From: Tautonia marina
GTDB taxonomy: Bacteria > Planctomycetota > Planctomycetia > Isosphaerales > Isosphaeraceae
Direction: 5' to 3'
Length of the DNA stretch: 64,000 nt
NCBI RefSeq assembly: GCF_009177065.1
Contig: NZ_WEZF01000003.1
Coordinates: 248,001 to 312,000 of the forward strand
Position 1 is the first letter of the stretch; every line of letters starts with the position of its first letter. Shown in pieces: positions 3,154 to 47,708 of the stretch. The position numbers were made by a program, and so were the translations under genes. Below the pieces are notes generated by a model that saw only the letters and a program-made list of their open reading frames with translations, had not been told where the DNA came from and did not search any database.

Positions 3154-3429
3154 TTACTTCATTCGGGGAGCGACGGGTAAGTGTTGCCGCCAGTCGGTCT
3201 GGTAGGGGTCGGAAAAGAGGAGCTGAACCGCCTCGGCCCGATTCGCCTCTGACTGAAGAAGGGTTTCAATCGCGGTGCGGCACTGGGCCAGGCGAGGGTC
3301 ATTTTCGATCCGATCACGGTTCGACGCGCGGTCGAGGCGGTCGAGGGACGCGGCAAGATCGAGGATCTTGGAGCGAATCTCAAGAAAATCGCGATCGAGG
3401 ACATCAGACGCCGTGCGGGACTGGGACAT
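3154..3429 (-). CDS. Small hypothetical protein (91 aa)
   Basis: This compact soluble protein begins MSQSRTASDVLDRDFLEIRS and is rich in charged residues and leucine, as expected for a mainly helical fold (an N-terminal helix to about residue 40, then a second after residue 45). It has no signal peptide, membrane segment or cysteine pair. Codon use matches neighbouring genes (GC at third positions), which is why I treat it as real and the longer overlapping frame on the same strand as a shadow. The next gene downstream is the PSD1 gene 256 nt away, so it is probably not in that operon. I do not recognise the family. Confidence 0.6.
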   Translation of the reverse strand: MSQSRTASDVLDRDFLEIRSKILDLAASLDRLDRASNRDRIENDPRLAQCRTAIETLLQSEANRAEAVQLLFSDPYQTDWRQHLPVAPRMK

Positions 3430-34845: not shown

Positions 34846-35170
34846 GGCCCCCTCGATTCCAACGTCCCCCGGCGTCCGGAGCGTATTCGTTCCGAATGCC
34901 TGACACGCGAATTGTCTGACCGATTGTACAAGCAAGCCTCGTGTGATCGAAACCGGACGCTTCGACCTTCGACGCGAGCATTGGTCGATCAAGCTTCATG
35001 GTCGATGACGAATCACACGCGGTGAAAGGAAGCATCGGCGGTCAATCGCCATTACAATCGGGGGGTCCGGGACGGTCACCCACGATAAAGTCGTGGAGGC
35101 AATCCCCGGGGCGCATGGGAACCGTGCGTCGACTCGAATCGGAATTCCTAACGGTGCAACTGGAGGAATC
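34846..35170. other. Divergent intergenic region (325 bp)
   Basis: This separates topB (minus) from the sugar isomerase-like gene (plus). No protein-quality frame is visible. A TACAAT at 35053-35058 is a possible -10 element for the plus gene, without a good -35. The ribosome binding sites GAGGGGG (minus, beside 34846) and GGAGGA (35162-35167) are clear. Confidence 0.45.
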
Positions 35171-36043
35171 ATGATCCGCAACGCGACCCTCTCTCGCTGG
35201 CTCGTCATGCCCGCGGTCGTCCTGCTAATGAACTCCGCGGCGCAGGCTCAGCCGCAGATTCCCGACGACGCCAAGATCGGTGGCTTCGCGATCGGTTGCC
35301 AGGCCTATACGTTCAATCGCTTTACGGCCTTCGAGGCGATTGAGAAAACCGCCCAGGCAGGCGGCAAGGTGATCGAGTTCTATCCCGGCCAGGCCCTCAG
35401 CCCCGATGAGCGCGACCTGAAGGTCGGCCACGACCAGCCGGAGGAGGTCACCGCCAAACTGAAGTCGAAGCTCGATGAGCACGGGCTGATCGCGGTCAAC
35501 TACGGCGTGGTCGGCGTCCCGAACAATGAGGACGAGGCTCGGAAGATCTTCGAGTTCGCCAAGGCGATGGGAATGCGAGCGATCACGACCGAGTCGGTCG
35601 ACGCCATCGATGTCCTTGAGAAACTGGCAAAGGAATATAACATCGGCGTGGCCTTCCACAACCACCCGAGCCGTCCGGACAATCCCGATTACAAGGTCTG
35701 GGACCCGAATTACATCGCCGAGCTGGTGAAGGACCGTGATGAGCGCATCGGGGCCTGCGCCGATACGGGTCACTGGGCTCGATCGGGGCTCAACCCCGTG
35801 GAATGCCTGAAAATCCTCAAGGGGCGCATCATCAGCTCGCACCTGAAGGATCTCAACGAGATGGGTCGAGCGGGACATGACGTCCCCTACGGAACCGGCG
35901 TGTGCAACATTGCCGGCGTCCTCGATGAGTTGAAGGCGCAAGGGTTCGAGGGAAACATCTCGATCGAGTACGAGCACGACTGGGAGAATAACGTCCCGGG
36001 CGTCGCTCAGTGCATCGGCTTCGTCCGAGGTTACACCCGCTGA
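35171..36043 (+). CDS. Secreted sugar phosphate isomerase/epimerase-like TIM barrel
   Basis: The start at 35171 has GGAGGA a few bases upstream. The 290-residue product begins with a signal peptide (MIRNATLSRWLVMPAVVLLM, ending AQAQ). The xylose-isomerase-like TIM barrel follows: AIGCQAYTFNRFTAFEAIEK, then VAFHNHPSRPDNPDYKVWD (metal ligand region), GACADTGHWARSGLNP and IISSHLKDLNE, with NISIEYEHDWE at the last metal site. Many exported planctomycete members of this family occur near sugar-degrading genes; the substrate is unknown. The gene is monocistronic and ends at a stem-loop shared with the convergent ACT gene. Confidence 0.87.
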   Translation: MIRNATLSRWLVMPAVVLLMNSAAQAQPQIPDDAKIGGFAIGCQAYTFNRFTAFEAIEKTAQAGGKVIEFYPGQALSPDERDLKVGHDQPEEVTAKLKSKLDEHGLIAVNYGVVGVPNNEDEARKIFEFAKAMGMRAITTESVDAIDVLEKLAKEYNIGVAFHNHPSRPDNPDYKVWDPNYIAELVKDRDERIGACADTGHWARSGLNPVECLKILKGRIISSHLKDLNEMGRAGHDVPYGTGVCNIAGVLDELKAQGFEGNISIEYEHDWENNVPGVAQCIGFVRGYTR

Positions 36044-36083
36044 GCGGGCTCGCTCCAAAACCGCCGAACCCTCAGCGGATGCT

Positions 36084-36118
36084 CCGAAGTGGCCGCACCA
36101 CCAGGCCGGCCACTTCGG
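36084..36118. terminator. Stem-loop between convergent genes, probable bidirectional terminator
   Basis: CCGAAGTGGCC (36084-36094) pairs perfectly with GGCCACTTCGG (36108-36118) over a 13-nt loop. It sits midway between the stops of the sugar isomerase-like gene (36043) and the ACT-domain gene (36134). There is no T-run. Confidence 0.5.
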
Positions 36119-36133
36119 GAACTGACGATGACC

Positions 36134-36670
36134 TCAATCCTCGGGCTCTGGAGTCACGCGGACATCCAGGTTCATCTCGTTTCCAATGGCAAACAAACCG
36201 TCGCTCCAGGAGGTTTCGGCAAGCTCGGGAGGAACGACAACACTTGCCGACATGTTAAAGAGAGGGGCACCACCAAAGGGAGCTGAGGTCGTCTCGGTCT
36301 CCATCGACTCGATGTTGATTCCCTGGCTCGACAGATGACGGGCAACCCGATGGACGATCCCTTCATCGTCAGCCCCTTCAACCTCAATTCGAAACGCCTG
36401 CCAGCCGGGATGGACTTCGGCGTAGGGGCGTTCGGTTGGCGTGACGGTAAGCTTGTAGCCGAGAGAGGCCAGCCCCTCCAACCCTTGACTTAGATCCTCT
36501 TGCCGAGCCTCTGGCAAGCTCACAAGCATCAGGACGGCAAACTCACCGCCGAGCCTGGCCATTCGGCTCGTCTCAACGTTCCCATCGCGTTCGAGCAAAA
36601 TCCGGGTCAACTCCTCGACAATGCCGATCCGGTCGGCGCCGGTTAGGGTGAGAATGACATGCCTGCTCAT
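36134..36670 (-). CDS. Tandem ACT domain protein (GcvR-like)
   Basis: The 178-residue product has two ACT domains and nothing else: MSRHVILTLTGADRIGIVEE (first, 1-80) and FRIEVEGADDEGIVHRVARH (second, about 90-165), each with the DRxGIV / DxEGIV ligand-binding turn. This layout matches GcvR, the glycine cleavage regulator, and related amino-acid-sensing proteins. It has no DNA-binding domain, so it would act through a partner or as a sensor. No gcv genes are nearby, and the name GcvR should not be used without more evidence. It is divergent from the isochorismatase-like gene. Confidence 0.88.
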   Translation of the reverse strand: MSRHVILTLTGADRIGIVEELTRILLERDGNVETSRMARLGGEFAVLMLVSLPEARQEDLSQGLEGLASLGYKLTVTPTERPYAEVHPGWQAFRIEVEGADDEGIVHRVARHLSSQGINIESMETETTSAPFGGAPLFNMSASVVVPPELAETSWSDGLFAIGNEMNLDVRVTPEPED

Positions 36671-36822
36671 CGACCGTCCCCCGTCGCAATCTTGCCTTCG
36701 CCTCGATTCTCGGCCACCATTCCATGAGCTTAACCCGCTCGTCGCCAGGAACGAAACGGGATGGGAACGATTCCCGTCAACTTCTCAACGCAAAACTTCC
36801 TGGGAATGCCTGGAGCCTCCTG

Positions 36823-37908
36823 ATGCAACTCGTTCCGATTCGCGTGGCGTTGCTCCTCGCCCCCTGGCTGTTGTGTGTTGCGGAAGCGGCGCCACAGGAA
36901 CTGACCGGTGAGACGCGCACGTATTCCAACCGACTGACCCCGATCGACGATCCACAGCCGATTCTTGCCGATTTTCCCGAGTTCGTGGCCCCGATCGAGG
37001 AGACGGCTCGCTTCGAAGCACCGGTCCTCGTGGACGATCCCGAAGCCGATCTTGAGGTTCGAGCCTGGCGGTTCTCCTACAACGCCAGAGGAATCATCGA
37101 GATCCCCAACCGCCTTCGGAGCGACCGTACCGCCATTGTGGTCGTTCATCCCTGGGGAATCGACGACGGTCAGGGGTGGGATACCCCTGAGCCGGCCGGT
37201 GCCGCGTTCCAATGTACGCCGGTCAAGAATGCAATCGCACTCGACCATGCAACAGCAGTCATCAATCCCTTCCTGAACGCCTGGCGAGATCAAGTCGGCG
37301 CGGTCGTCTACAGCCTTCCCGGCACCGAAGACCCGATTCGGGGCAAACTCTACCGATCCGTCCGCAGCACTCCCAGCCCGGAGGATCGAGTGAACGGTCA
37401 GCGGGAATTGACCGAAGCACTGCGCTCCTTTACGTACCAGGGCGATGCCTTGCCACAACAACTCGAGGTCTCGACTGAAACACCAACCATCGACTACTTC
37501 CGCAACTTTCGGGGCCTTGACGCTGGGCCGACCTACGACCCGCCGGGATTTTGGGAACTCCCCATCCCGGTTATGAAACCCATCGAAGTCGCTCCCGAAG
37601 ATGTGGTCATCTATGACGGCGAAGGATACGACCTACTCCGCGAGTTCCTCCAATCGCAAGGCATCCGGCACGTACTCCTGGCAGGTTACAACACCGACAT
37701 GTGTGTTTGTTCCACCACAGCCGGATATGAGAACCTGCGAAAAGACTTTAACGTCTTCCTGATCGGCGATGCAACGCTCGCCACGTTCCCTGCAAATCCC
37801 CGGCCCAGCCTGGCGACGAATGCCGCCGTCTCGTTCGCCGCACTTGATCTGTTCATCACTCAGGTCTCCTGGATCCGACCTCGGCAAAACACCCGTTCAA
37901 CCGATTGA
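36823..37908 (+). CDS. Secreted isochorismatase-like cysteine hydrolase
   Basis: I start at 36823 (MQLVPIRVALLLAPWLLCVA, a signal peptide) with GGAG about 7 nt upstream, giving 361 residues; a longer frame begins at 36724. The C-terminal part has GIRHVLLAGYNTDMCVCSTT, where TDMCV holds the nucleophilic Cys of the isochorismatase fold, followed by VFLIGDATLATFP. The N-terminal half has TAIVVVHPWGIDDGQGWDTP, a wider active-site loop than in small cytoplasmic members. Export is unusual for this fold but occurs in planctomycetes. The deacetylase gene follows after 37 nt, so the pair may be cotranscribed. Confidence 0.82.
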   Translation: MQLVPIRVALLLAPWLLCVAEAAPQELTGETRTYSNRLTPIDDPQPILADFPEFVAPIEETARFEAPVLVDDPEADLEVRAWRFSYNARGIIEIPNRLRSDRTAIVVVHPWGIDDGQGWDTPEPAGAAFQCTPVKNAIALDHATAVINPFLNAWRDQVGAVVYSLPGTEDPIRGKLYRSVRSTPSPEDRVNGQRELTEALRSFTYQGDALPQQLEVSTETPTIDYFRNFRGLDAGPTYDPPGFWELPIPVMKPIEVAPEDVVIYDGEGYDLLREFLQSQGIRHVLLAGYNTDMCVCSTTAGYENLRKDFNVFLIGDATLATFPANPRPSLATNAAVSFAALDLFITQVSWIRPRQNTRSTD

Positions 37909-37945
37909 GCTGGATTCCATGCAATCCTTCCTCCAGAGAGAAGTG

Positions 37946-38941
37946 ATGATTGACCGACGGCAATTCCTGGCCAAAACCACGGCCCTCTCCACCCTTGCGA
38001 CCACCTTGCCGAGGGCCATAGCCCGTGGCCAGGACGACGAGACGAAACCCGCGCAGATCGCGATCACGCTTGACCTGGAAATGTCTCGCCAGTACCCGAC
38101 TCGTGACCAGTTTCATTGGGATTACGAGAAGGGGAATCTGGACCGGGACACGAAACGATACGCCGTGGAAGCCGCCCGGCGGGTCGCCGATCGCGGAGTC
38201 AGGATCCACTTTTTTGCCCTCGGCCGCACCATGGAGCAAGAGGACGTTTCCTGGCTCCAACAGATCGCCGAAGCCGGTCATCCAATCGGCAACCATACTT
38301 ACGATCATGTGAATGTTCTCGCCACGGAACCAGGGGCCATTCAGTTTCGATTTGAACGCGCTCCGTGGCTCATTGAAGGTCGAAGCATCAAGGAAGTTCT
38401 CCGCGAGAATATTCGGCTGGCCGATCGAGCCTTGCAAACTCGGCTCGGCATTGATGTGGCCGGATTTCGAACCCCGGGCGGGTTCCACGAGGGCATCTCA
38501 CCACGCTCTGACATCCAGCAATTGCTCATCGACCAGGGCTATCACTGGGTCAGCAGCAAGTATCCTGCGCATCCCTCAAGCAAGCCCGGGACAGCCCCCG
38601 ATGACGCACTGCTCGACGCGATCGTCGCGGCCCAGGCCGAGGCTCAGCCGTTTCGTTATCCTTCGGGACTGATCGAGGTTCCCATGAGCCCGATCAGCGA
38701 TGTCGGGGCGTTTCGAACCAGCCGGTGGCCGCTGGAGGCCTTCCTCGAATCCATCCGACGCTGCATCACCTGGGCGATCGACCGGGGGGCGGTCTTTGAC
38801 TTCCTTGCGCATCCCTCGTGCCTGCTGGTCGAAGATCCCGAGTTCCGCTCGATCGACTTGATCTGCGATCTGGTCGACAACGCGCAGGATCGGGCCGCCA
38901 TCGTCGATCTGGAGACGATCGCCCGACGCGTCTCGGAGTGA
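37946..38941 (+). CDS. Tat-exported polysaccharide deacetylase
   Basis: I start at the ATG at 37946, where the product (331 residues) begins with a twin-arginine-type signal (MIDRRQFLAKTTALS). An ATG at 37919 would add nine residues. The NodB homology domain follows: IAITLDLEMS (DLE in place of the usual DDG), HPIGNHTYDHVN (metal-binding H-x3-H), FRTPGGFHEG, and a late HPSCLLVEDPEFRS. It would remove N- or O-acetyl groups from a glycan in the periplasm. The DLE motif is shared with a group of atypical deacetylases, so activity is likely but not certain. The isochorismatase-like gene lies 37 nt upstream. Confidence 0.85.
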   Translation: MIDRRQFLAKTTALSTLATTLPRAIARGQDDETKPAQIAITLDLEMSRQYPTRDQFHWDYEKGNLDRDTKRYAVEAARRVADRGVRIHFFALGRTMEQEDVSWLQQIAEAGHPIGNHTYDHVNVLATEPGAIQFRFERAPWLIEGRSIKEVLRENIRLADRALQTRLGIDVAGFRTPGGFHEGISPRSDIQQLLIDQGYHWVSSKYPAHPSSKPGTAPDDALLDAIVAAQAEAQPFRYPSGLIEVPMSPISDVGAFRTSRWPLEAFLESIRRCITWAIDRGAVFDFLAHPSCLLVEDPEFRSIDLICDLVDNAQDRAAIVDLETIARRVSE

Positions 38942-39104: not shown

Positions 39105-39944
39105 ATGGATTACATCGACCCGCATATCCACATGGTCAGCCGGACCACCGATGACTACAAGCGCATGGCCCTGGCCGGATGCGTCCTCATCAGCGAGCCG
39201 GCCTTCTGGGCCGGGTTCGATCGGTCGGGGCCGGAAGGATTTCGAGACTATTTCCGGCAGCTCACGGCGTTTGAGCGGAAGCGATCGCTGGCCCACGGAA
39301 TCGAGCATCGAACCTGGCTTTGCATCAATGCGAAGGAGGCCGAGGACGTCGAGCTTGCCCGAGCCGTGATCGCCATGATTCCGGAGTTCATCGACAATCC
39401 CGAAGTACTTGGCATCGGCGAGATCGGCCTGAACAAGAATACGCCGAACGAGGCGACCGTCTTCCTGGAACATCTCGACGTCGCCGCGAAGCTTGATGAG
39501 CTGGTGCTCGTCCACACGCCCCACCTGGTGGACAAGTACAAGGGGACCCGGATGATTCTCGACATGGTTCGAGAATACCGCGACGCCATCGCTCCCGAAC
39601 GGGTTTGCATCGACCACGTCGAGGAGCACACGATCAAACCCGCACTCGACGCCGGCCACTGGGTCGGCATGACACTCTACCCCACCACCAAATGCACCCC
39701 CGCGCGAGCCGCTGATCTGATCGAGGTCTACGGCACCGAGCGCATCATGGTCAACTCGGCCGGTGACTGGGGCCACAGCGATCCCCTGGCCGTCCCTGAG
39801 TTCATCTTCGAAATGCGTTCCCGCGGTCACGACGATGCGACCATCAAAATGGTCGTCTACGACAATCCGCTGACCTTCTTCTCTCAATGTCCGAGGTTCT
39901 CGTATACCCCAAGGGCCACGGAGGGGGAACCGTCGGTCGTGTGA
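39105..39944 (+). CDS. eboB: TatD-family metal-dependent hydrolase (EboB-like)
   Basis: The 279-residue cytoplasmic product is a metal-dependent amidohydrolase-type TIM barrel. Motifs are DPHIHMVSRTTDDYKRM (HxH), GEIGLNKNTPNE (Glu), LVHTPHLVDKYKG (His), CIDHVEEHTI (His) and NSAGDWGHSDPLAVPEF (Asp). The pattern HMVSRTTDDY and the LYPTTKCTPARAADLI segment resemble the EboB proteins of ebo clusters rather than housekeeping TatD DNases. It is convergent with a minus-strand set of an EboF-like phosphodiesterase, an EboC-like UbiA prenyltransferase and a TIM barrel. The assignment rests on this context and should be checked by search. Confidence 0.8.
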   Translation: MDYIDPHIHMVSRTTDDYKRMALAGCVLISEPAFWAGFDRSGPEGFRDYFRQLTAFERKRSLAHGIEHRTWLCINAKEAEDVELARAVIAMIPEFIDNPEVLGIGEIGLNKNTPNEATVFLEHLDVAAKLDELVLVHTPHLVDKYKGTRMILDMVREYRDAIAPERVCIDHVEEHTIKPALDAGHWVGMTLYPTTKCTPARAADLIEVYGTERIMVNSAGDWGHSDPLAVPEFIFEMRSRGHDDATIKMVVYDNPLTFFSQCPRFSYTPRATEGEPSVV

Positions 39945-39996
39945 CGATCCTGGCGGCCTCGGAATTGTGTCCTCTGGGTCACCGCGACAAAAGCGA

Positions 39997-41283
39997 TCAA
40001 TCGGATCGTGCCGCACGCGGCCGCTTCAGAAGGTCGAGCACCAGGCGAACGACCTCGGAGCTGGAGCTGGGCCGCTCCTCATTCCCCTTGATCATTCCCG
40101 GTTCGGAGCAGATGAGGACGCCGATGTAGAGGTCGCTGGGCGGAGGAGCACCGAGCGATCCTCGGACGTGGTCCGGGTTGAGCAAGGTGGAGTCTCCGAT
40201 CGGAATGGACGACTCGGTGACGACGACAGGGCGTTCGTCTTCGGAGATCCACCACGACGGCGCAAACCAGGAATCCGGACAGGCCACGAGGACAACATCC
40301 CCCGCCCTCGGGTGATCGAGTCCCAGAAGATTCCGCTGTTCATCCGAGGCGACTACCAGCGCCACGCCGTCGCTCTGTGCTCCTGAAAAGGTCGAGGCCA
40401 CGGTCCCCGCCACCGAGGGATCATTAAAGTAGATGTGGCAAAGCTGATGGTCGGCCAGGGCAAAGGCCGGGGAATGGGAGAGATCGACCCCGATCCCGCC
40501 TGAGGGCAAGGCCACCGTCTTGAGCAAGCCGAGATCGCGCAGAATGCGATTCGGAAAAATCGTCTCGGTGACCGGCGTAACAATCGACTCGGTCACGGCG
40601 ACAACGGCGGTGCCCTCAGGCAGCGTCTTGAGAAAGTCGGCGAGCATCGCGTCGAGCGTTCGGATGGCCCGACCTGCGTGGCGACCATCGGGTCCGTAGC
40701 GACGGGCGATTTGCCCAAGGTACGGCACGCGAATGACGGCCAGGTCGGGCCGTTCTTCCTGGATCATCCGCGAGGCGCTTTGAAGAATCCAGGTACTCGG
40801 CGGTTCGAAGGTGGGCTCGTCGGTCTGCTCTTCCTTCGGGAAAGGGCCAAGCTCAAGTTCGAGTCGGTTTTGCAGATCCTCGGGGACGGTGTGTAGCAGG
40901 CGAGGGCGATCAACCCATGCCATCAATTCCACGTCAGCGCCTCGAGTATCGGGCGTGAACCAGAGCATCACCCTCGCACCGGGTCGTTCTTCGCGGGCCA
41001 TGTGCCAGAGTTTCTGCCCCAGCACCGCCGAGTCGGGCAGGGGGACCGTTACCACGTTCCGGGCAACGCGGTCCAGGAAGACATTCCCGATCAGTCCATG
41101 CTCGCGAGGTTCAAGCCCCGTCATCAGGGTGGCAAAGGCCGAGGAGGCCAACCCCGGAAAGGGTGGCACGGCCGAGGTCATTGAACCTCGGGAGGTCAGG
41201 CGTTCCAGCGATCCGAGTCCGCCGGGGGTCACATCCCGACACCGAAGCTGGGGAATCGTCAAGAGAACGACACGGTCAGACAT
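39997..41283 (-). CDS. eboF: Alkaline phosphatase superfamily protein (EboF-like phosphodiesterase)
   Basis: The start at 41283 has GAGG 5 nt upstream, giving 428 residues without a signal peptide. It opens VVLLTIPQLRCRDVTPGGLG, and PFPGLASSAFATLMTGLEPREHGLIGN is the nucleophile region of the type I phosphodiesterase family. AIRTLDAMLADFLKTL and VTESIVTPVTETIFPNR follow, where the usual TSDHGM metal site is replaced by TESIV, so some metal ligands look altered. In ebo clusters EboF is this kind of protein. It is the last gene of the minus-strand set, 105 nt after eboC-like. Confidence 0.78.
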   Translation of the reverse strand: MSDRVVLLTIPQLRCRDVTPGGLGSLERLTSRGSMTSAVPPFPGLASSAFATLMTGLEPREHGLIGNVFLDRVARNVVTVPLPDSAVLGQKLWHMAREERPGARVMLWFTPDTRGADVELMAWVDRPRLLHTVPEDLQNRLELELGPFPKEEQTDEPTFEPPSTWILQSASRMIQEERPDLAVIRVPYLGQIARRYGPDGRHAGRAIRTLDAMLADFLKTLPEGTAVVAVTESIVTPVTETIFPNRILRDLGLLKTVALPSGGIGVDLSHSPAFALADHQLCHIYFNDPSVAGTVASTFSGAQSDGVALVVASDEQRNLLGLDHPRAGDVVLVACPDSWFAPSWWISEDERPVVVTESSIPIGDSTLLNPDHVRGSLGAPPPSDLYIGVLICSEPGMIKGNEERPSSSSEVVRLVLDLLKRPRAARSD

Positions 41284-41388
41284 CGGTACCTCGGCATCAT
41301 GCTCAGAACGCGCTCGACGCCCAACGGTGAACCCAATCAACCCCCAAGGAATCCTCAAAGCCCTGGAGGTTCCAGGGAACGCTCCTCA

Positions 41389-42306
41389 TCAGGTCGAGTA
41401 AATCCATCGGGCCGTCAGGGAGGCCGGAATCCAGAGCGCAGCCACGGCAAGAGCCGAGGTCGGCTCTCGAACGCAGGCAACGACCCCAACATGCAGCCAG
41501 ATCAACGAGAGGACCCCAACCTTGACCGCCCGTTGCAACGTCTCGGGCCTCGGTTCGCGCACCGCTCGACCACTGGCCCAGAGAATTCGAGACGAGACGA
41601 GGATGAGGATCACGATTCCAAGGATGGGAACACTCGGACGATCGGTCCAAGGACTTGGGAACGATCCTCCGGAAATCCCCGCGCCGAACAGGGCCGCGAT
41701 CCCGATTGCTTGAAGCACCAGGCCCGAGGCAGGGGCCGCTCGACGGCCGACTTCCGTCTCGAAGCGGCTGATCCAGGTCACTCCGGCAATGAACACGGCC
41801 ATTGCCGCCGCGACCGTCCAGGCAGCCGGGCCGCCGAACTCAGGGGCAAGGCTCATGCCGAGCAGGACATTCAGGCCCCGGCAGAGTCCCATCAATTCCG
41901 GCCCGAGGATGGTTCGACGCACTCCCGCATCGTATGCGACGACGGAGGCAATCAAGGCCCCCGCCACCATCGCCGATCGCAGACCGGCGAAACTCGCCGA
42001 GGCGAATCCGACCGCAAGCAAGGCCACCGCCATGCTCACCGCGAACGTCACGGACACCTTCCCGGAAGGCAAAGGGCGACCGGGCCGTTCGCCTCGGTCG
42101 ACGTCCAGGTCAAACACATCATTGAGGGCGATCCCCGCGGCATAAATCGCCATCGAGGCGACGACCAGCGGCAGCCAGGCCCTTGCACCCACCAGAAGTC
42201 CACCGACAAGCAACCAGCCACTCAGACTATCGGCGGCGGCCGTGAAGACGTTCGGGAGTCGAACCAGTTGAAAATACGGTTTCAATCGCATGGAAACGCG
42301 GTTCAT
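41389..42306 (-). CDS. eboC: UbiA-family prenyltransferase (EboC-like)
   Basis: The start at 42306 overlaps the stop of the TIM barrel gene by 4 nt (ATGA), showing tight coupling. The 305-residue product has about nine hydrophobic segments. YFQLVRLPNVFTAAADSLSG is the N-terminal signature and ALNDVFDLDVDRGERPGRP the first Asp-rich motif (NDxxDxxxD) of UbiA. YDAGVRRTILGPELMGLCRG holds the second part. UbiA enzymes transfer prenyl or other lipid chains in the membrane. EboC proteins are UbiA members whose role in metabolite export is not chemically defined. Neighbours support EboC but ubiquinone/heme types cannot be excluded. Confidence 0.82.
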   Translation of the reverse strand: MNRVSMRLKPYFQLVRLPNVFTAAADSLSGWLLVGGLLVGARAWLPLVVASMAIYAAGIALNDVFDLDVDRGERPGRPLPSGKVSVTFAVSMAVALLAVGFASASFAGLRSAMVAGALIASVVAYDAGVRRTILGPELMGLCRGLNVLLGMSLAPEFGGPAAWTVAAAMAVFIAGVTWISRFETEVGRRAAPASGLVLQAIGIAALFGAGISGGSFPSPWTDRPSVPILGIVILILVSSRILWASGRAVREPRPETLQRAVKVGVLSLIWLHVGVVACVREPTSALAVAALWIPASLTARWIYST

Positions 42307-43160
42307 CCGGCGTCGGCGGGGGTCTCGACCAGGGGTCGCAGGTGTTCGATCGCCTGTCGAGCTGCCTCGTCGGGGTCGTCGACAAAGGGGTAGAGTTCGA
42401 CCGTGACCCAACCGTCGTAGCCGGTCTTGCGGATCGCGTCGAAGACTCCCGGGAAATCGATCGCCCCCGTGCCGGGGACGAGGTGATGATGCACTCGGGA
42501 GGCCGCGATGTCCTCGACGTGATAATGGTTGGTCAAATGCGCGAGCTTGGCAATCTGAGCGGGCAAATCCTCGGCCATGCAGTAGGCGTGTCCCACGTCG
42601 AAGTTGAGGCCAAGCGAGGGGGCATTCACACGTTCGGCAACTTCAAGATACTGATCGGTGGTTTCGAGCAAGAGGCCGGGTTCCGGCTCAATCAGGAGCA
42701 ACACCCCGCGTCGATCGGCATGCTCGGCCAGGGGTTTGAGGACTTCAACAAACAGATCAATGGCCTCTTGCCGCGACTGTCCGGGAGCGATCGGTCCCCC
42801 TGGTTCAGTCGTAATGTGAGGAGCGCCCAGTTCGGCACACAGGTCAAGCGATCGCCGGGTGTGATCGATCCGGACACTGCGATAACCTTTGTCGGGCTCG
42901 ATGAACGAAGGATACCAGTACGGTTGCCGAGCGTCGGCAATGGCGTTCATCATGAACGCGTTGACGTTCGAGAACCGGAGCGCATGCCGCTGCATGCTCT
43001 GAGTGATCGCCTGCTTTATCCCGTCGAGCAGCCCCGCCGGCCAGGCGTGGGGCACATCGGCCATGAGTTCAAGCCCTTCGTAGCCGATTGCGGCAATCCG
43101 CTCGGCGGCCTCGTCGAAGGGGAAACGCATGTACGCATTGGTGCTGAACGCCAGTCGCAT
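42303..43160 (-). CDS. Sugar phosphate isomerase/epimerase-like TIM barrel (possible EboE counterpart)
   Basis: The 285-residue product starts at 43160 with GAGG 5 nt upstream and is cytoplasmic. It is a xylose-isomerase-like TIM barrel: MRLAFSTNAYMRFPFDEAAE, GYEGLELMADVPHAW, LLLIEPEPGLLLE (Glu ligand), LNFDVGHAYCMAED (Asp/His), NHYHVEDIAASRVHHHLVPG and VTVELYPFVDDPDE (final Glu). It heads the minus-strand operon with eboC-like and eboF-like genes. Ebo clusters also include a TIM barrel protein (EboE), which is usually longer; whether this is the same protein needs comparison. Confidence 0.85.
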   Translation of the reverse strand: MRLAFSTNAYMRFPFDEAAERIAAIGYEGLELMADVPHAWPAGLLDGIKQAITQSMQRHALRFSNVNAFMMNAIADARQPYWYPSFIEPDKGYRSVRIDHTRRSLDLCAELGAPHITTEPGGPIAPGQSRQEAIDLFVEVLKPLAEHADRRGVLLLIEPEPGLLLETTDQYLEVAERVNAPSLGLNFDVGHAYCMAEDLPAQIAKLAHLTNHYHVEDIAASRVHHHLVPGTGAIDFPGVFDAIRKTGYDGWVTVELYPFVDDPDEAARQAIEHLRPLVETPADAG

Positions 43161-43416: not shown

Positions 43417-44136
43417 ATGGATATTACCGCTCATGTCGTCTCTCGAATCCGGCCGTGCAGCTACGTGCCGTCGCAGGCGTCTCGCATGGAATTCGAGGTC
43501 GTCAGAACGATGGACCCGGACGATTATCTTCGACGGCTCCAGGCCGGCTGGCGGCGGTTTGGTCGGACCCTGTTCCGGCCTCGGTGTCTGGGATGCTCGG
43601 AATGCCGATCGCTTCGTGTCGATGCCCGTCGGTTTCGCCCCGATCGAAGCATGAAGCGTGTGCGTTCCCGGAACCTTGGCATTCTGGAGTGGACCGTTCA
43701 GGAGGCCTCCGGTCCACCCGATCCGGAAGTGCTCGACCTCTACGATCGCTACCATTTCCGTCAGAAAGAACTGCGAGGATGGCCCAGCCACGAACTCGAC
43801 GCTCCCGAGGACTTTTACGACGCCTTTCTCGACAACCCGATTCCGACCGAGCAATGGTCGTATCGACTCGACGGCCGATTGATCGGCGCGGGGTTCGTCG
43901 ATGTCCTTCCCGGAGCCTTCTCAGCCATTTATTTTGTCTACGACCACGCGTTTCTCGACCGGTCCCCGGGAACTTGGAACATTCTCTGCCTGCTTGATCG
44001 AGCAGCCGAACAGGGAAGGCAACACGTTTACCTCGGATACTTCGTGGCCGAGTGCCGATCGCTGTCTTACAAGGCTCGGTTTCAGCCCAACGAAGTGCTC
44101 GATTCGAAGGGAAACTGGGTCCCCTTTGTGAGTTGA
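43417..44136 (+). CDS. Aspartate/glutamate leucyl- or arginyl-tRNA-protein transferase (Bpt/Ate type)
   Basis: The 239-residue cytoplasmic product matches bacterial aminoacyl-tRNA-protein transferases. RPCSYVPSQASRMEFEVV and FRPRCLGCSECRSLRVDARR carry the conserved cysteine cluster, followed by DLYDRYHFRQKELRGWP. YVYDHAFLDRSPGTW and YLGYFVAECRSLSYKARFQP match the C-terminal domain. The enzyme adds Leu (or Arg) to N-terminal Asp/Glu of proteins, marking them for ClpS/ClpAP degradation. The gene is monocistronic and divergent from the TIM barrel gene. Length (about 240) and motif order are normal. Leu versus Arg specificity cannot be read with certainty. Confidence 0.9.
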   Translation: MDITAHVVSRIRPCSYVPSQASRMEFEVVRTMDPDDYLRRLQAGWRRFGRTLFRPRCLGCSECRSLRVDARRFRPDRSMKRVRSRNLGILEWTVQEASGPPDPEVLDLYDRYHFRQKELRGWPSHELDAPEDFYDAFLDNPIPTEQWSYRLDGRLIGAGFVDVLPGAFSAIYFVYDHAFLDRSPGTWNILCLLDRAAEQGRQHVYLGYFVAECRSLSYKARFQPNEVLDSKGNWVPFVS

Positions 44137-44267: not shown

Positions 44268-47200
44268 ATGGCCCTGGGCACCGAGCCGCAACAGCAAGGC
44301 AGGATGCTTGACTACGAGCAGTTCGTGGATCATCAACTGCATCTCACCCGGTCTCGCATCCGAGCGACCGAAGTCTTCACCGCCTTGGTGGTGATGGTTA
44401 CGGGCATCCTCGGCTTGTTGTTGTTGGAGATCGTGCTCGACCACTGGATCGGTCTCCCCTGGGCGGTGCGCGCGGTGATCTTGTTCGCGGCCTTGCTGGT
44501 TGGGGGGTACGCCTTTCTCCGGTATGTGGTGCGCCCACTGCTCTCGTCGGTCAACAGTTTCTACGCGGCTTGCACGATCGAGTCATACGATCCTCGCTTC
44601 AAGAACAGTTTGCTCAATTATATTGACCTGCGTCGACATCGTGCGGAATTACCTCCCGCGATTCTCCGGACGCTGGAGGCCCGTGCCGTCCGCGACCTGG
44701 CCGAGGTGCAGGTGGAAGCGGCGGTCGATCAGCGGTATCTGACGAAGTCGTTCTACGCCCTCGCCGCCGTGGTGGTCCTGTTCTGCCTCTATGTGGTCCT
44801 GACGCCGAAAAACGTGCTCGACTCGGCGCGGCGGGCGCTGCTGGCCGATGTCGCCCGGCCGACGAACACCCGTCTCATCAATATCAAGCCCGGCGACGAT
44901 GAGACGCTCTCCCGGGTGGTCTCCGGCTCGAATGTCACCTTCGAGGCCGAGGTCGATTACCGGGGGATTCGCCCCGACGAGGTCCGGCTCCATTACAGCA
45001 GCGACGGCGGCGAGTACTTCGCCTCGACCAGCCTGGATGAGGGCGAGCAGCGCTACGACCCCTGGTCGGTCACGCTCCGCAATGTCCAGCAAGACCTGAT
45101 CTACTACCTCTCCGCCAACGACTTCGAGACCAAACAGTACCGCCTGACCGTGCTGCCCGCGCCCCGGGTCGTCTCCGTGGTCCACGACCTCGATTTCCCG
45201 GATTACACGGGCGTTCCCGATCGGGAAGGGGTGGAAGGGGGCAACGTCCGGGCGCTCGCAGGCACGATGGTGACGGTCCGCGCCACCACGAACCAGTCCG
45301 CCCGGAACGGCAACCTGGACCTCGGCGCCCTGGGCACGGCCCGGCTCGTCGTCTCACGGGGCAATCCCCAGGAATTGACCGGCCGGTTCAGGGTCGACGA
45401 GAACGGCTCGTACTCCATCAAGTTCGAGACGACCGAGGGTCAGTTGAATCCGGAGCCGGTCGTCTACGACATCGAGGCCCTCCCCGACCGCGTCCCCGAG
45501 GTCCGCTTCATCCAGCCCGAGCCCGACCGGATCGAGGTCCCGAGCAATTCCCGGATCGCGCTCGCGCTGACCGCCTCCGACGACTTCGGCCTCTCCTCGG
45601 CCATGCTCCACCTCGAACGCGAGGGGGCCCCGGTCTTCGACCCTCGGGATTTGCTTGAGGGCAAAGAGGCTTCCCGGTCGCTCGATCACGTCGAGCCGCT
45701 CGATCTCGAGGCGATCGGCGCCCGCCCTGGCGATCGGCTGACCTACTGGGCCGAGGTCCGCGACAACCGTTCCCCGACGGCCCAGGATGCCCAGACCAGC
45801 CGCCGCATCCTGGAGATCATCGATCCGATCGAGGAACCCGAGGAAACGCCCCAGCCTGACCAGCAACCGCCTCCTCCGGAGGATCAACCTCCTCGCGACG
45901 GCTCCACACTCGACGAGCCCCCCCCACAGGATGCGACTCCTCCCCGGGACGGCCAGGAGCAGCAGGCCGGCAACCAGCCTCCCTCCCCCGAGGGCAACCC
46001 TCCCCCCGACCAGCAGGCTCCTCCAGAAGGCCAGGGTCAGCAGGGTCAGGGCCAGCAGGGCCAAGGGGCGCCTGGAAATGAGGGGGCAACTCAGACCGAT
46101 CCCTCACTAGCCAACAACGCTGACGGCTCCCCCCGCGACGAACAATCCCGTCCCGACGACCGCCCGCTCTCCCCCGAAGAGCAGGAAAAGCTCGACCGCA
46201 TGCTCAACGCGCTCGACCAGGATCGTCAAGAACCACCCCCCAACCAACGCCCTCAAGATCAGCCCCAGCAGGACAACCAACAGCGCCAGGGCGAAGGCCA
46301 GCAGCGCCAGGGCGAAGGCCAGCAAGGCGACCAGCGCCAGGGCGAAGGCCAGCAGCGCCAGGGCGAGGGTCAGCAAGGCGACCAGCGCCAGGGCGAAGGC
46401 CAGCAAGGTGACCAGCGCCAGGGCGAAGGTCAGCAAGGCGACCAGCGCCAGGGCGAAGGTCAGCAAGGCGACCAGCGCCAGGGCGAGGGTCAGCAAGGTG
46501 ACCAGCGCCAGGGCGAAGGCCAGCAGCGCCAGGGCGAAGGTCAGCAAGGTGACCAGCGCCAGGGCGAAGGCCAGCAGCGCCAGGGCGAAGGCCAGCAGCG
46601 CCAGGGCGAAGGTCAGCAAGGTGACCAGCGCCAGGGCGAAGGCCAGCAGCGCCAGGGCGAAGGCCAGCAAGGTGACCAGCGCCAGGGCGAAGGTCAGCAG
46701 CGCCAGGGCGAGGGTCAGCAAGGTGACCAGCGCCAGGGCGAAGGCCAGCAGCGCCAGGGCGAAGGCCAGCAGCGCCAGGGCGAAGGCCAGCAAGGCGACC
46801 AGCGCCAGGGCGAAGGCCAGCAAGGTGACCAGCGCCAGGGCGAAGGCCAGCAAGGCGACCAGCGCCAGGGCGAAGGCCAGCAGCGCCAGGGCGAAGGCCA
46901 GCAAGGTGACCAGCGCCAGGGCGAAGGCCAGCAGCGCCAGGGCGAAGGCCAGCAGCGCCAGGGCGAAGGTCAGCAAGGTCAGCAGGGCCAGCAAGGCGAT
47001 CAGCGCCAGGGCGAAGGTCAGCAAGGCCAGCAAGGTCAGCAAGGCCAGCAAGGTCAGCAAGGCCAGCAAGGCCAGCAAGGCGATCAGCGCCAGGGCGAAG
47101 GCCAGCAAGGTCAGCAGCGATCCGGCGAGTCTGGCGAAGGCATGGGTGAACCCGAAGGAGAGGTCGGCCAGGCGAAATTGCCTCAGAGACTGCCGGATGC

Positions 47201-47708
47201 AGAGGATCTGAGCGAGCCTCCGCCGAAGCCAGATGGCCCGCCGCAGGTCGGCCGTGAGGCCCCCATTCCCGAAAACCTCCAGGCAAGGGACCAGAAACTC
47301 CGCCGGATTCGGGAAGCACTTCAAGATGAGGACCAGACGCGCAAGCTCGAAGACCTCACGGGCATGACCCGCGAGGAAATGTCTCAGTTCGTCGAACGCT
47401 TCTCCGGACCTCCCGAAGGCCCGTCACGTGAGGGGCAAGAGTTGGAGGTCGACCTCGATTCTGAATCGGCGCCTCTCGACCCAAACCGAGTCGTTCCCGA
47501 CCCTCTCTCCGGCGTCCGACAGAGCGAAGGGGCCAGACGATCTCAGGGGACCGGCGTCAACGATGGCCTCGGCATGAGCCGTCAAGGCGGTGGAACGCCT
47601 CCGCCTCCCCAGCTCCGGAAACTCGTCGAGGCTTACCAGCGCCGGCTTTCTGACACCAATCCCCCCACCACCCCGCCCTCTCGGCCCTCGGGCGGTCCCC
47701 CCAAGTAA
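44268..47708 (+). CDS. Large membrane protein with DUF4175-like N-terminal region and a Gln/Gly/Arg-rich repeat
   Basis: The start at 44268 has AAAGGGAGG 7 nt upstream, giving 1146 residues. Two membrane helices (about 36-58 and 66-88) and a third (about 159-179) precede a long extracytoplasmic beta-rich part with ALPDRVPEVRFIQPEPDRIE and repeated Asp/Pro loops, as in DUF4175/TIGR02302 proteins. Residues about 520-670 are Pro/Gln-rich. Residues about 671-945 form the tandem repeat, and a charged C-terminal part (LPQRLPDAEDLSEPPP) ends it. The protein is probably anchored in the envelope. Its function is unknown. The repeat makes frameshifts and length changes likely between strains. Confidence 0.85.
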   Translation: MALGTEPQQQGRMLDYEQFVDHQLHLTRSRIRATEVFTALVVMVTGILGLLLLEIVLDHWIGLPWAVRAVILFAALLVGGYAFLRYVVRPLLSSVNSFYAACTIESYDPRFKNSLLNYIDLRRHRAELPPAILRTLEARAVRDLAEVQVEAAVDQRYLTKSFYALAAVVVLFCLYVVLTPKNVLDSARRALLADVARPTNTRLINIKPGDDETLSRVVSGSNVTFEAEVDYRGIRPDEVRLHYSSDGGEYFASTSLDEGEQRYDPWSVTLRNVQQDLIYYLSANDFETKQYRLTVLPAPRVVSVVHDLDFPDYTGVPDREGVEGGNVRALAGTMVTVRATTNQSARNGNLDLGALGTARLVVSRGNPQELTGRFRVDENGSYSIKFETTEGQLNPEPVVYDIEALPDRVPEVRFIQPEPDRIEVPSNSRIALALTASDDFGLSSAMLHLEREGAPVFDPRDLLEGKEASRSLDHVEPLDLEAIGARPGDRLTYWAEVRDNRSPTAQDAQTSRRILEIIDPIEEPEETPQPDQQPPPPEDQPPRDGSTLDEPPPQDATPPRDGQEQQAGNQPPSPEGNPPPDQQAPPEGQGQQGQGQQGQGAPGNEGATQTDPSLANNADGSPRDEQSRPDDRPLSPEEQEKLDRMLNALDQDRQEPPPNQRPQDQPQQDNQQRQGEGQQRQGEGQQGDQRQGEGQQRQGEGQQGDQRQGEGQQGDQRQGEGQQGDQRQGEGQQGDQRQGEGQQGDQRQGEGQQRQGEGQQGDQRQGEGQQRQGEGQQRQGEGQQGDQRQGEGQQRQGEGQQGDQRQGEGQQRQGEGQQGDQRQGEGQQRQGEGQQRQGEGQQGDQRQGEGQQGDQRQGEGQQGDQRQGEGQQRQGEGQQGDQRQGEGQQRQGEGQQRQGEGQQGQQGQQGDQRQGEGQQGQQGQQGQQGQQGQQGQQGDQRQGEGQQGQQRSGESGEGMGEPEGEVGQAKLPQRLPDAEDLSEPPPKPDGPPQVGREAPIPENLQARDQKLRRIREALQDEDQTRKLEDLTGMTREEMSQFVERFSGPPEGPSREGQELEVDLDSESAPLDPNRVVPDPLSGVRQSEGARRSQGTGVNDGLGMSRQGGGTPPPPQLRKLVEAYQRRLSDTNPPTTPPSRPSGGPPK
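46278..47102 (+). repeat. In-frame coding repeat, about 29 units of QQRQGEG / QQGDQRQGEG
   Basis: About 13 short units (QQRQGEG, 21 nt), 14 long units (QQGDQRQGEG, 30 nt) and two expanded units with extra QQG triplets can be counted. Units differ only by a few silent changes (gaa/gag, ggc/ggt). All three plus-strand frames and at least two minus-strand frames stay open through it, giving long spurious reading frames on both strands. Confidence 0.95.

Follow-up and report, generated by a model that had tools for sequence, protein, structure and literature searches.

Here we analyzed a stretch of 64,000 nucleotides from the planctomycete Tautonia marina (assembly GCF_009177065.1, contig NZ_WEZF01000003.1, positions 248,001 to 312,000 of the forward strand), referred to below as the window. 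At 39105-43160 it carries four neighbouring genes for a TatD-like metal hydrolase, a phosphodiesterase (PDE), a UbiA prenyltransferase and a xylose-isomerase-like TIM barrel. These genes are probably part of an ebo-type pathway which is complete but scattered over the genome, in which several parts have been replaced and in which a sugar phosphate cyclase would feed a cyclitol to the prenyltransferase EboC. The new point is that the cyclase of this pathway appears to be replaceable, the enzyme being EboD in some genomes and an inositol-phosphate synthase (MIPS) in others. Ebo is a little-understood pathway of the membrane-lipid type. In Nostoc the transport of scytonemin precursors to the periplasm depends on its genes, for which a lipid-carrier role was suggested (PMC6282210), and an isoprenoid-cyclitol compound was proposed in 2016 (Yurchenko et al. 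2016, PMC5133447); these two papers and PMC9235831 are cited throughout from part of their text.

The four open reading frames (ORFs) were confirmed by ORF finding in the window. The TatD gene lies on the + strand (39105-39944, 279 amino acids) and is convergent with the other three on the - strand (39997-43160), just as an earlier sequence-only reading of this DNA had described. The PDE gene occupies 39997-41283 (the ORF extends to 41358, and the ATG at 41283 is likelier from the alignment), the UbiA gene 41389-42306 (305 amino acids, ORF to 42411) and the TIM barrel gene, named TIM1 here, 42303-43160 (285 amino acids). The stop of TIM1 overlaps the likely start of UbiA, as chosen in this analysis, by 4 nucleotides (42303-42306), which suggests that TIM-UbiA-PDE is one operon. 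The Pfam scores were 34.5 bits for TatD_DNase (PF01026), 103.1 for Phosphodiest (PF01663), 60.9 for UbiA and 157.2 for AP_endonuc_2 (PF01261).

The layout of TIM1-UbiA-PDE facing TatD is the same in all three other genomes of the genus. Elsewhere in the family Isosphaeraceae, TIM1-UbiA comes together with TatD, and in many cases MIPS lies upstream and a second barrel, TIM2, lies downstream; one relative (G272) carries MIPS-TIM1-UbiA-TIM2-PDE plus TatD on a single contig. In Planctomycetota outside the family the arrangements TatD-UbiA-PDE, UbiA-TIM-PDE and TIM-UbiA-TIM-PDE are recurrent. A match to the TatD protein itself was present in 43 of the 45 order genomes, among them all 26 good ones, with 76-97% identity where the match was full length. 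Because of this distribution of TatD, the constant layout in the genus and the arrangements recurring outside the family, the four genes belong together beyond chance, and the lack of co-occurrence in relatives that the sequence-only reading had named as a refutation did not occur.

The TatD protein is predicted to be of the EboB type. It is 37-58% identical to EboB of ebo and MIPS-type clusters in an alignment of 9 sequences (the comparison organisms were Deinococcus, Aureibacter, Mycetohabitans, Streptomyces, Halobaculum and Gemmatirosa), and it reached 23 bits with the TatD subfamily model TIGR00010, below the cut-off of 206. The canonical TatD of the genome is a separate gene with 254 bits. 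The UbiA protein is tentatively assigned to the EboC type, as its best NCBIfam model was EboC with 201.4 bits (cut-off 250), followed by the SCO3242-family prenyltransferase model with 177.7 bits (cut-off 260); the quinone, heme and chlorophyll UbiA models stayed below 40 bits and the NDxxDxxxD motif is retained. It is hardly credible that the four are unrelated neighbours, with TatD as a nuclease, UbiA of the quinone or heme kind, and the PDE and the barrel as a phosphatase and a sugar isomerase, even though each of the four proteins belongs to a large superfamily and the UbiA protein scores under the EboC cut-off. Such generic neighbours were rejected on the score of EboC as best model, on the separate canonical TatD gene and on the recurrence of the set in other families, other phyla and haloarchaea.

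The PDE of the cluster is putatively a conserved pseudoenzyme paralogue of EboF, in which the catalytic Thr and most metal ligands are lost. In an alignment of 24 sequences its residue at the position of the Thr nucleophile is Ala, unlike in the others, PHLDY is changed to PYLGQ, SEYG or its variants to TESI and GSHG or its variants to GSLG, and the DIHxKPGYDP loop is missing; the roles of these motifs as Thr nucleophile and metal ligands are those which we assume from the alkaline phosphatase superfamily. The sequence-only reading had noticed a damaged metal site, and the damage proved larger than it claimed, the nucleophile being lost too. The losses of the nucleophile, PHLDY and GSHG are common to all five clade relatives (three of the genus, G272 and G251), and these pseudo-EboF proteins form one clade with support 100/100. 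Their Ka/Ks was 0.06-0.18 in three pairs, with Ks saturated in two of the three, and for this reason pseudo-EboF is not decaying; perhaps it has a structural role. No relative of it was found among solved structures at E 0.001. A second PDE of the genome, at G000:C2:391672-392781 (G000 being the genome of the window), has all motifs intact in the same alignment and clusters with EboF of five named clusters (support 100/98), which points to an intact EboF.

The sequence-only reading had taken the locus for a reduced ebo cluster without eboA and eboD. Among the window ORFs of at least 60 amino acids none was indeed found for EboD or EboA with our own box profiles. The genome as a whole gave a divided answer: EboA was not found, and EboD is present. 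The EboD query matched G000:C23:82919-84028 with 324 bits (110 bits for the AroB-type match), and the EboD-type NCBIfam model NF004852, which carries the label 3-dehydroquinate synthase and with which the EboD from a true ebo cluster scores 530, gave 482 bits at G000:C23:82910-84040 (cut-off 333). This EboD retains the metal-ligand pattern of its superfamily, the ligand roles being presumed. In a small sugar phosphate cyclase tree (12 rows, the Paenibacillus row on a very long branch) it groups with the EboD proteins from four named clusters and is separate from AroB (100/99).

A gene of 91 amino acids at 3154-3429 on the - strand of the window, 36 kb from the other parts, is predicted to be a homologue of EboG, the published stand-in for EboA. 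It matched the profile of a small gene that lies close upstream of TatD in several Isosphaeraceae (E 1.9e-34) and the profile of Deinococcus-type EboG (E 1.2e-19), and the small gene and Deinococcus-type EboG match each other in a profile-profile comparison with 98.7% probability. EboG of Deinococcus sp. QL22 was recognised by position, as a short gene that stands between EboD and EboB. The window homologue had no Pfam or NCBIfam match, and a copy stands at matching distance in G286. In Deinococcus and others eboG is a short gene that is mutually exclusive with eboA (PMC5133447). The same was seen in 89 loci around EboB, of which 80 came from genomes (the best 80 of 174) and 9 from plasmids: EboA was present in 25, EboG in 25 and both in none, under thresholds set by the analyst and with many loci stopping at contig ends, so that absence from a locus is not absence from the genome. 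The EboA model gave no match in the own genome (0 of 1) in a search whose control was empty, and the absence of EboA rests mainly on the presence of EboG, since the two are reported as mutually exclusive (PMC5133447).

The TIM barrel is one place where the ebo-like set of the sequence-only reading fell short. The EboB-type TatD, the EboC-type UbiA and the conservation of the four genes together stood, and the barrel reached 23 bits only with the EboE model (cut-off 250); of the searches against Ebo family models which that reading had proposed, the one with the UbiA protein gave EboC as best model, below its cut-off, and the scan of the TatD protein matched no dedicated EboB model in NCBIfam. 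In the own genome the best EboE match had E 1.2e-4, not over the cut-off, which 155 of the 246 Planctomycetota genomes in our phylum sample pass. TIM1 is linked to UbiA in relatives. In the 89 loci EboE was present in 43 and TIM1 in 8, never both, and the four genomes of the phylum sample in which TIM1 was seen (own, G167, G080 and G012) all had no EboE over the cut-off. TIM1 is therefore best assigned, from these patterns, to a family distinct from EboE that appears to replace it.

The genome would thus hold homologues of B, C, D, F and G, spread over at least three contigs, with E alone replaced. The proposal of the sequence-only reading, a minimal ebo core for which EboB, EboC, EboF and a TIM barrel are enough, is very improbable. 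The four genes do stay together in the genus, but the TIM barrel is not EboE, the locus cannot be read as a working core because its PDE is a pseudoenzyme without catalytic residues, and the minimal core was rejected when EboD, intact EboF and EboG were found elsewhere in the genome.

The cyclase was surveyed in the order and in the phylum. No MIPS was found in the own genome, either with PF07994 or with the cluster MIPS of a relative (0 matches). Among the 45 genomes of the order, 31 have a MIPS-like gene, 14 have EboD, one has both (G252) and one has neither (G262, 89% complete), with p 2.6e-9. Of the 14 genomes that lack MIPS, 13 carry EboD, as does one of the 31 MIPS genomes. MIPS lies within 3 kb of TIM1 in 28 of these 31. 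In the 246 genomes of the phylum EboD was found in 51 and MIPS in 138, and both in 2 (G106, and G153 with a broken fragment) against 28.6 expected (p 7e-19). Counted by family (87 families) the numbers were 20, 51 and 2 against 11.7 expected (p 5e-7). These p values ignore deeper relatedness, and one genome (G221) was scored as without EboD with a half-length match of 234 bits at a contig end that may be EboD. One family of the same class (f2) contains genera of either cyclase kind.

TIM2 was found in about 30 of the 45 genomes of the order and comes and goes with MIPS; it may be required only alongside MIPS. A second TIM barrel lies within 5 kb of TIM1 in 23 of the 31 MIPS genomes; 7 have a TIM2 match on another contig (two of them weak), and 1 has none, its contig ending there. 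In the 14 genomes without MIPS there was no TIM2 match at E 1e-18 or better among the matches listed, the next one being 3.1e-17, which is a small gap.

The same alternation was seen on plasmids. The EboB query gave 52 plasmid records at a looser limit and 51 at the limit used, and within 10 kb of EboB 16 of the 51 have EboD, 32 have MIPS, 3 have neither and none has both. The tally entered 38 of 53 MIPS rows, and none of the 15 omitted is among the 51 EboB records. Counted by genus, EboD is found in 8 and MIPS in 7, Streptomyces alone giving 27 of the 51 records. On the plasmid NZ_CP108294 of Streptomyces NBC_00028 the order is MIPS-UbiA-TIM-EboA-TatD-EboE-PDE, with MIPS where EboD would be, and plasmids of the archaea Halobaculum and Natronococcus carry MIPS, PDE, TatD, TIM, UbiA and TIM. 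The clusters of Mycetohabitans, Deinococcus, Roseivivax and Aureibacter carry EboD, and Haladaptatus has neither cyclase nearby. As a separate observation, a gene of the ScyD/ScyE family stands beside the Streptomyces NBC_00028 cluster (L311 1880-3079), echoing the cyanobacterial scytonemin link.

Over almost the whole of its length the cluster MIPS matches the Ino1 structure 1u1i (E 5.5e-81), and it retains the lysine-bearing segments, whose lysines we take to be catalytic lysines of the active site. In Paenibacillus phytorum (L387 1152-7889) the order TIM-TatD-TIM-UbiA-PDE is followed, 0.9 kb downstream of PDE, by a cyclase which is below the cut-offs of EboD (160 bits, cut-off 333) and AroB (225 bits, cut-off 305) and closest to 2-deoxy-scyllo-inosose synthase (301 bits, the next being 146). 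Ino1 (1u1i) and 2-deoxy-scyllo-inosose synthase (2d2x) are the closest solved relatives of these EboD stand-ins and are enzymes of the inositol and aminoglycoside pathways.

The gene content, the linkage, the mutual exclusion and the loss of catalytic residues described above are direct observations. From them we infer a possible set and order of reactions, with EboD and MIPS filling one slot. A sugar phosphate cyclase would make a cyclitol or cyclitol phosphate, EboC would link this product with a polyprenyl chain in the membrane, the ring or a sugar would be isomerised or epimerised by TIM1 or EboE, EboF and EboB would remove a phosphate or another group, and EboG or EboA would aid assembly. 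The cyclase slot would be held by EboD in the lineage of the window, by MIPS with TIM2 in most relatives and perhaps by a 2-deoxy-scyllo-inosose-synthase-like enzyme in one Paenibacillus. As the orthologues of EboB and EboC stay while EboD and MIPS alternate, the simplest reading is that both cyclases may supply a cyclitol ring to the prenyltransferase.

MIPS makes a defined product from glucose 6-phosphate and retains a phosphate. For the sugar phosphate cyclases near EboD the substrate is sedoheptulose 7-phosphate, and the phosphate is lost (PMC5133447), and this difference, along with TIM2 coming and going with MIPS, would fit MIPS-type and EboD-type clusters making different prenylated compounds, so that the exclusion reflects lineage-specific products. 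Such a division of products is possible but rather unlikely, because orthologues of EboB, EboC and TIM1 are common to both types within one family, which argues for one downstream chemistry.

Several points weigh against a replaceable cyclase feeding a cyclitol to EboC. The window UbiA protein is below the EboC cut-off, yet none of the 246 phylum genomes reaches it, true ebo clusters included. An EboC homologue of Flavobacteria farnesylated an aromatic acid in vitro (PMC9235831), which speaks against a strictly cyclitol acceptor. The EboD on C23 is linked to no other ebo gene, G257 and G258 carry EboD and EboB without TIM1, and G252 has both cyclases, with EboD heading another gene set. The Pfam MIPS model counts every MIPS, beside UbiA or not. 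Of the 64 phylum genomes that reach at least 120 bits with the EboC model, 12 have neither cyclase, and in 9 of the 46 loci that contain both TatD and UbiA neither lies within the stretch covered. The TatD tree of the order has poor resolution, with 10 of its 36 inner branches starred; supported branches force only 2 cyclase changes, too few for a sign test, and the best tree has 5. The Paenibacillus cyclase is a single locus.

Some of these points would also suit a decaying remnant, in which the genus inherited MIPS-TIM1-UbiA-TIM2-PDE plus TatD and lost MIPS and TIM2, the rest having taken another job and EboD belonging to an unrelated pathway. The window genome lacks both MIPS, which 31 of the 45 order genomes have, and TIM2, which about 30 have; the window PDE is catalytically dead, EboD is unlinked, and in G252 EboD stands beside a MIPS-type cluster. 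We regard such decay as unlikely: selection strongly constrains the genes that remain (Ka/Ks 0.02-0.18), TatD is highly conserved across the order, EboD, EboG and intact EboF are all retained, and EboD is present almost only where MIPS is missing. The scattered but complete ebo-type pathway remains the reading we prefer.

Compared with the ebo cluster (PMC5133447; PMC6282210), the genome of the window is alike in having homologues of EboB, EboC, EboD, EboF and EboG, and differs in the scattering of its parts, in TIM1 standing for EboE and in the extra dead EboF copy. According to PMC5133447, its three Planctomycetes show no ebo clustering and two of them no eboD, whereas here EboD was over the cut-off in 51 of 246 genomes and several genomes have clusters. 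The Streptomyces NZ_CP108294 cluster, whose prenyltransferase is of the SCO3242 family, shares the EboB- and EboC-type proteins and a xylose-isomerase-like barrel with the window genome but has MIPS, EboA, EboE and an intact PDE, while the window genome has no MIPS. The Halobaculum and Natronococcus plasmid clusters have TIM-UbiA-TatD-PDE with neither EboA nor EboE annotated, a content also seen in most Isosphaeraceae, and in addition carry MIPS and a second TIM barrel, both of which the genus of the window has lost.

Other genes adjoin the cluster in the window. At 35093-38941 there are genes for a secreted-looking TIM barrel, an ACT-domain protein, an isochorismatase-like protein and a polysaccharide deacetylase, which stay beside the cluster in two of the three genomes of the genus and partly in the third. 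An arginine-tRNA-protein transferase gene (43417-44136) adjoins TIM1, and 44268-47708 encodes a large protein of 1146 amino acids with a long GEGQQ/RQGEGQQGDQ repeat run. Elsewhere, EboD of G252 (L302 490-9529) is followed by seven genes on the same strand, like another biosynthetic operon, and in several families a weaker UbiA match and a MIPS match lie about 13-15 kb apart on one contig (for example in G007, G059, G078, G085, G096 and G203), perhaps another conserved region.

More widely, and only tentatively, ebo may be a general pathway for polyprenyl-linked cyclitols in bacteria and haloarchaea with swappable parts: EboD, or MIPS with TIM2, or a 2-deoxy-scyllo-inosose-synthase-like enzyme; EboE or TIM1; EboA or EboG. 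Searches of an open-access library, in which most subscription journals are absent, gave no paper that connects MIPS with ebo. The cyclase swap agrees with the isoprenoid-cyclitol proposal of 2016 and narrows it, because the product of MIPS is a defined one. If MIPS can replace EboD, the EboD product and an inositol-type ring would have to be interchangeable, and the EboD product may come from glucose 6-phosphate and not from sedoheptulose 7-phosphate as in that proposal.

An enzyme of known reaction in the slot of EboD would, if the replacement is true, constrain the class of the building block of ebo. The pathway can also be complete without clustering, and therefore surveys of gene clusters only will miss it; the ebo genes that seem to be missing from planctomycetes may be elsewhere in the genome or replaced.

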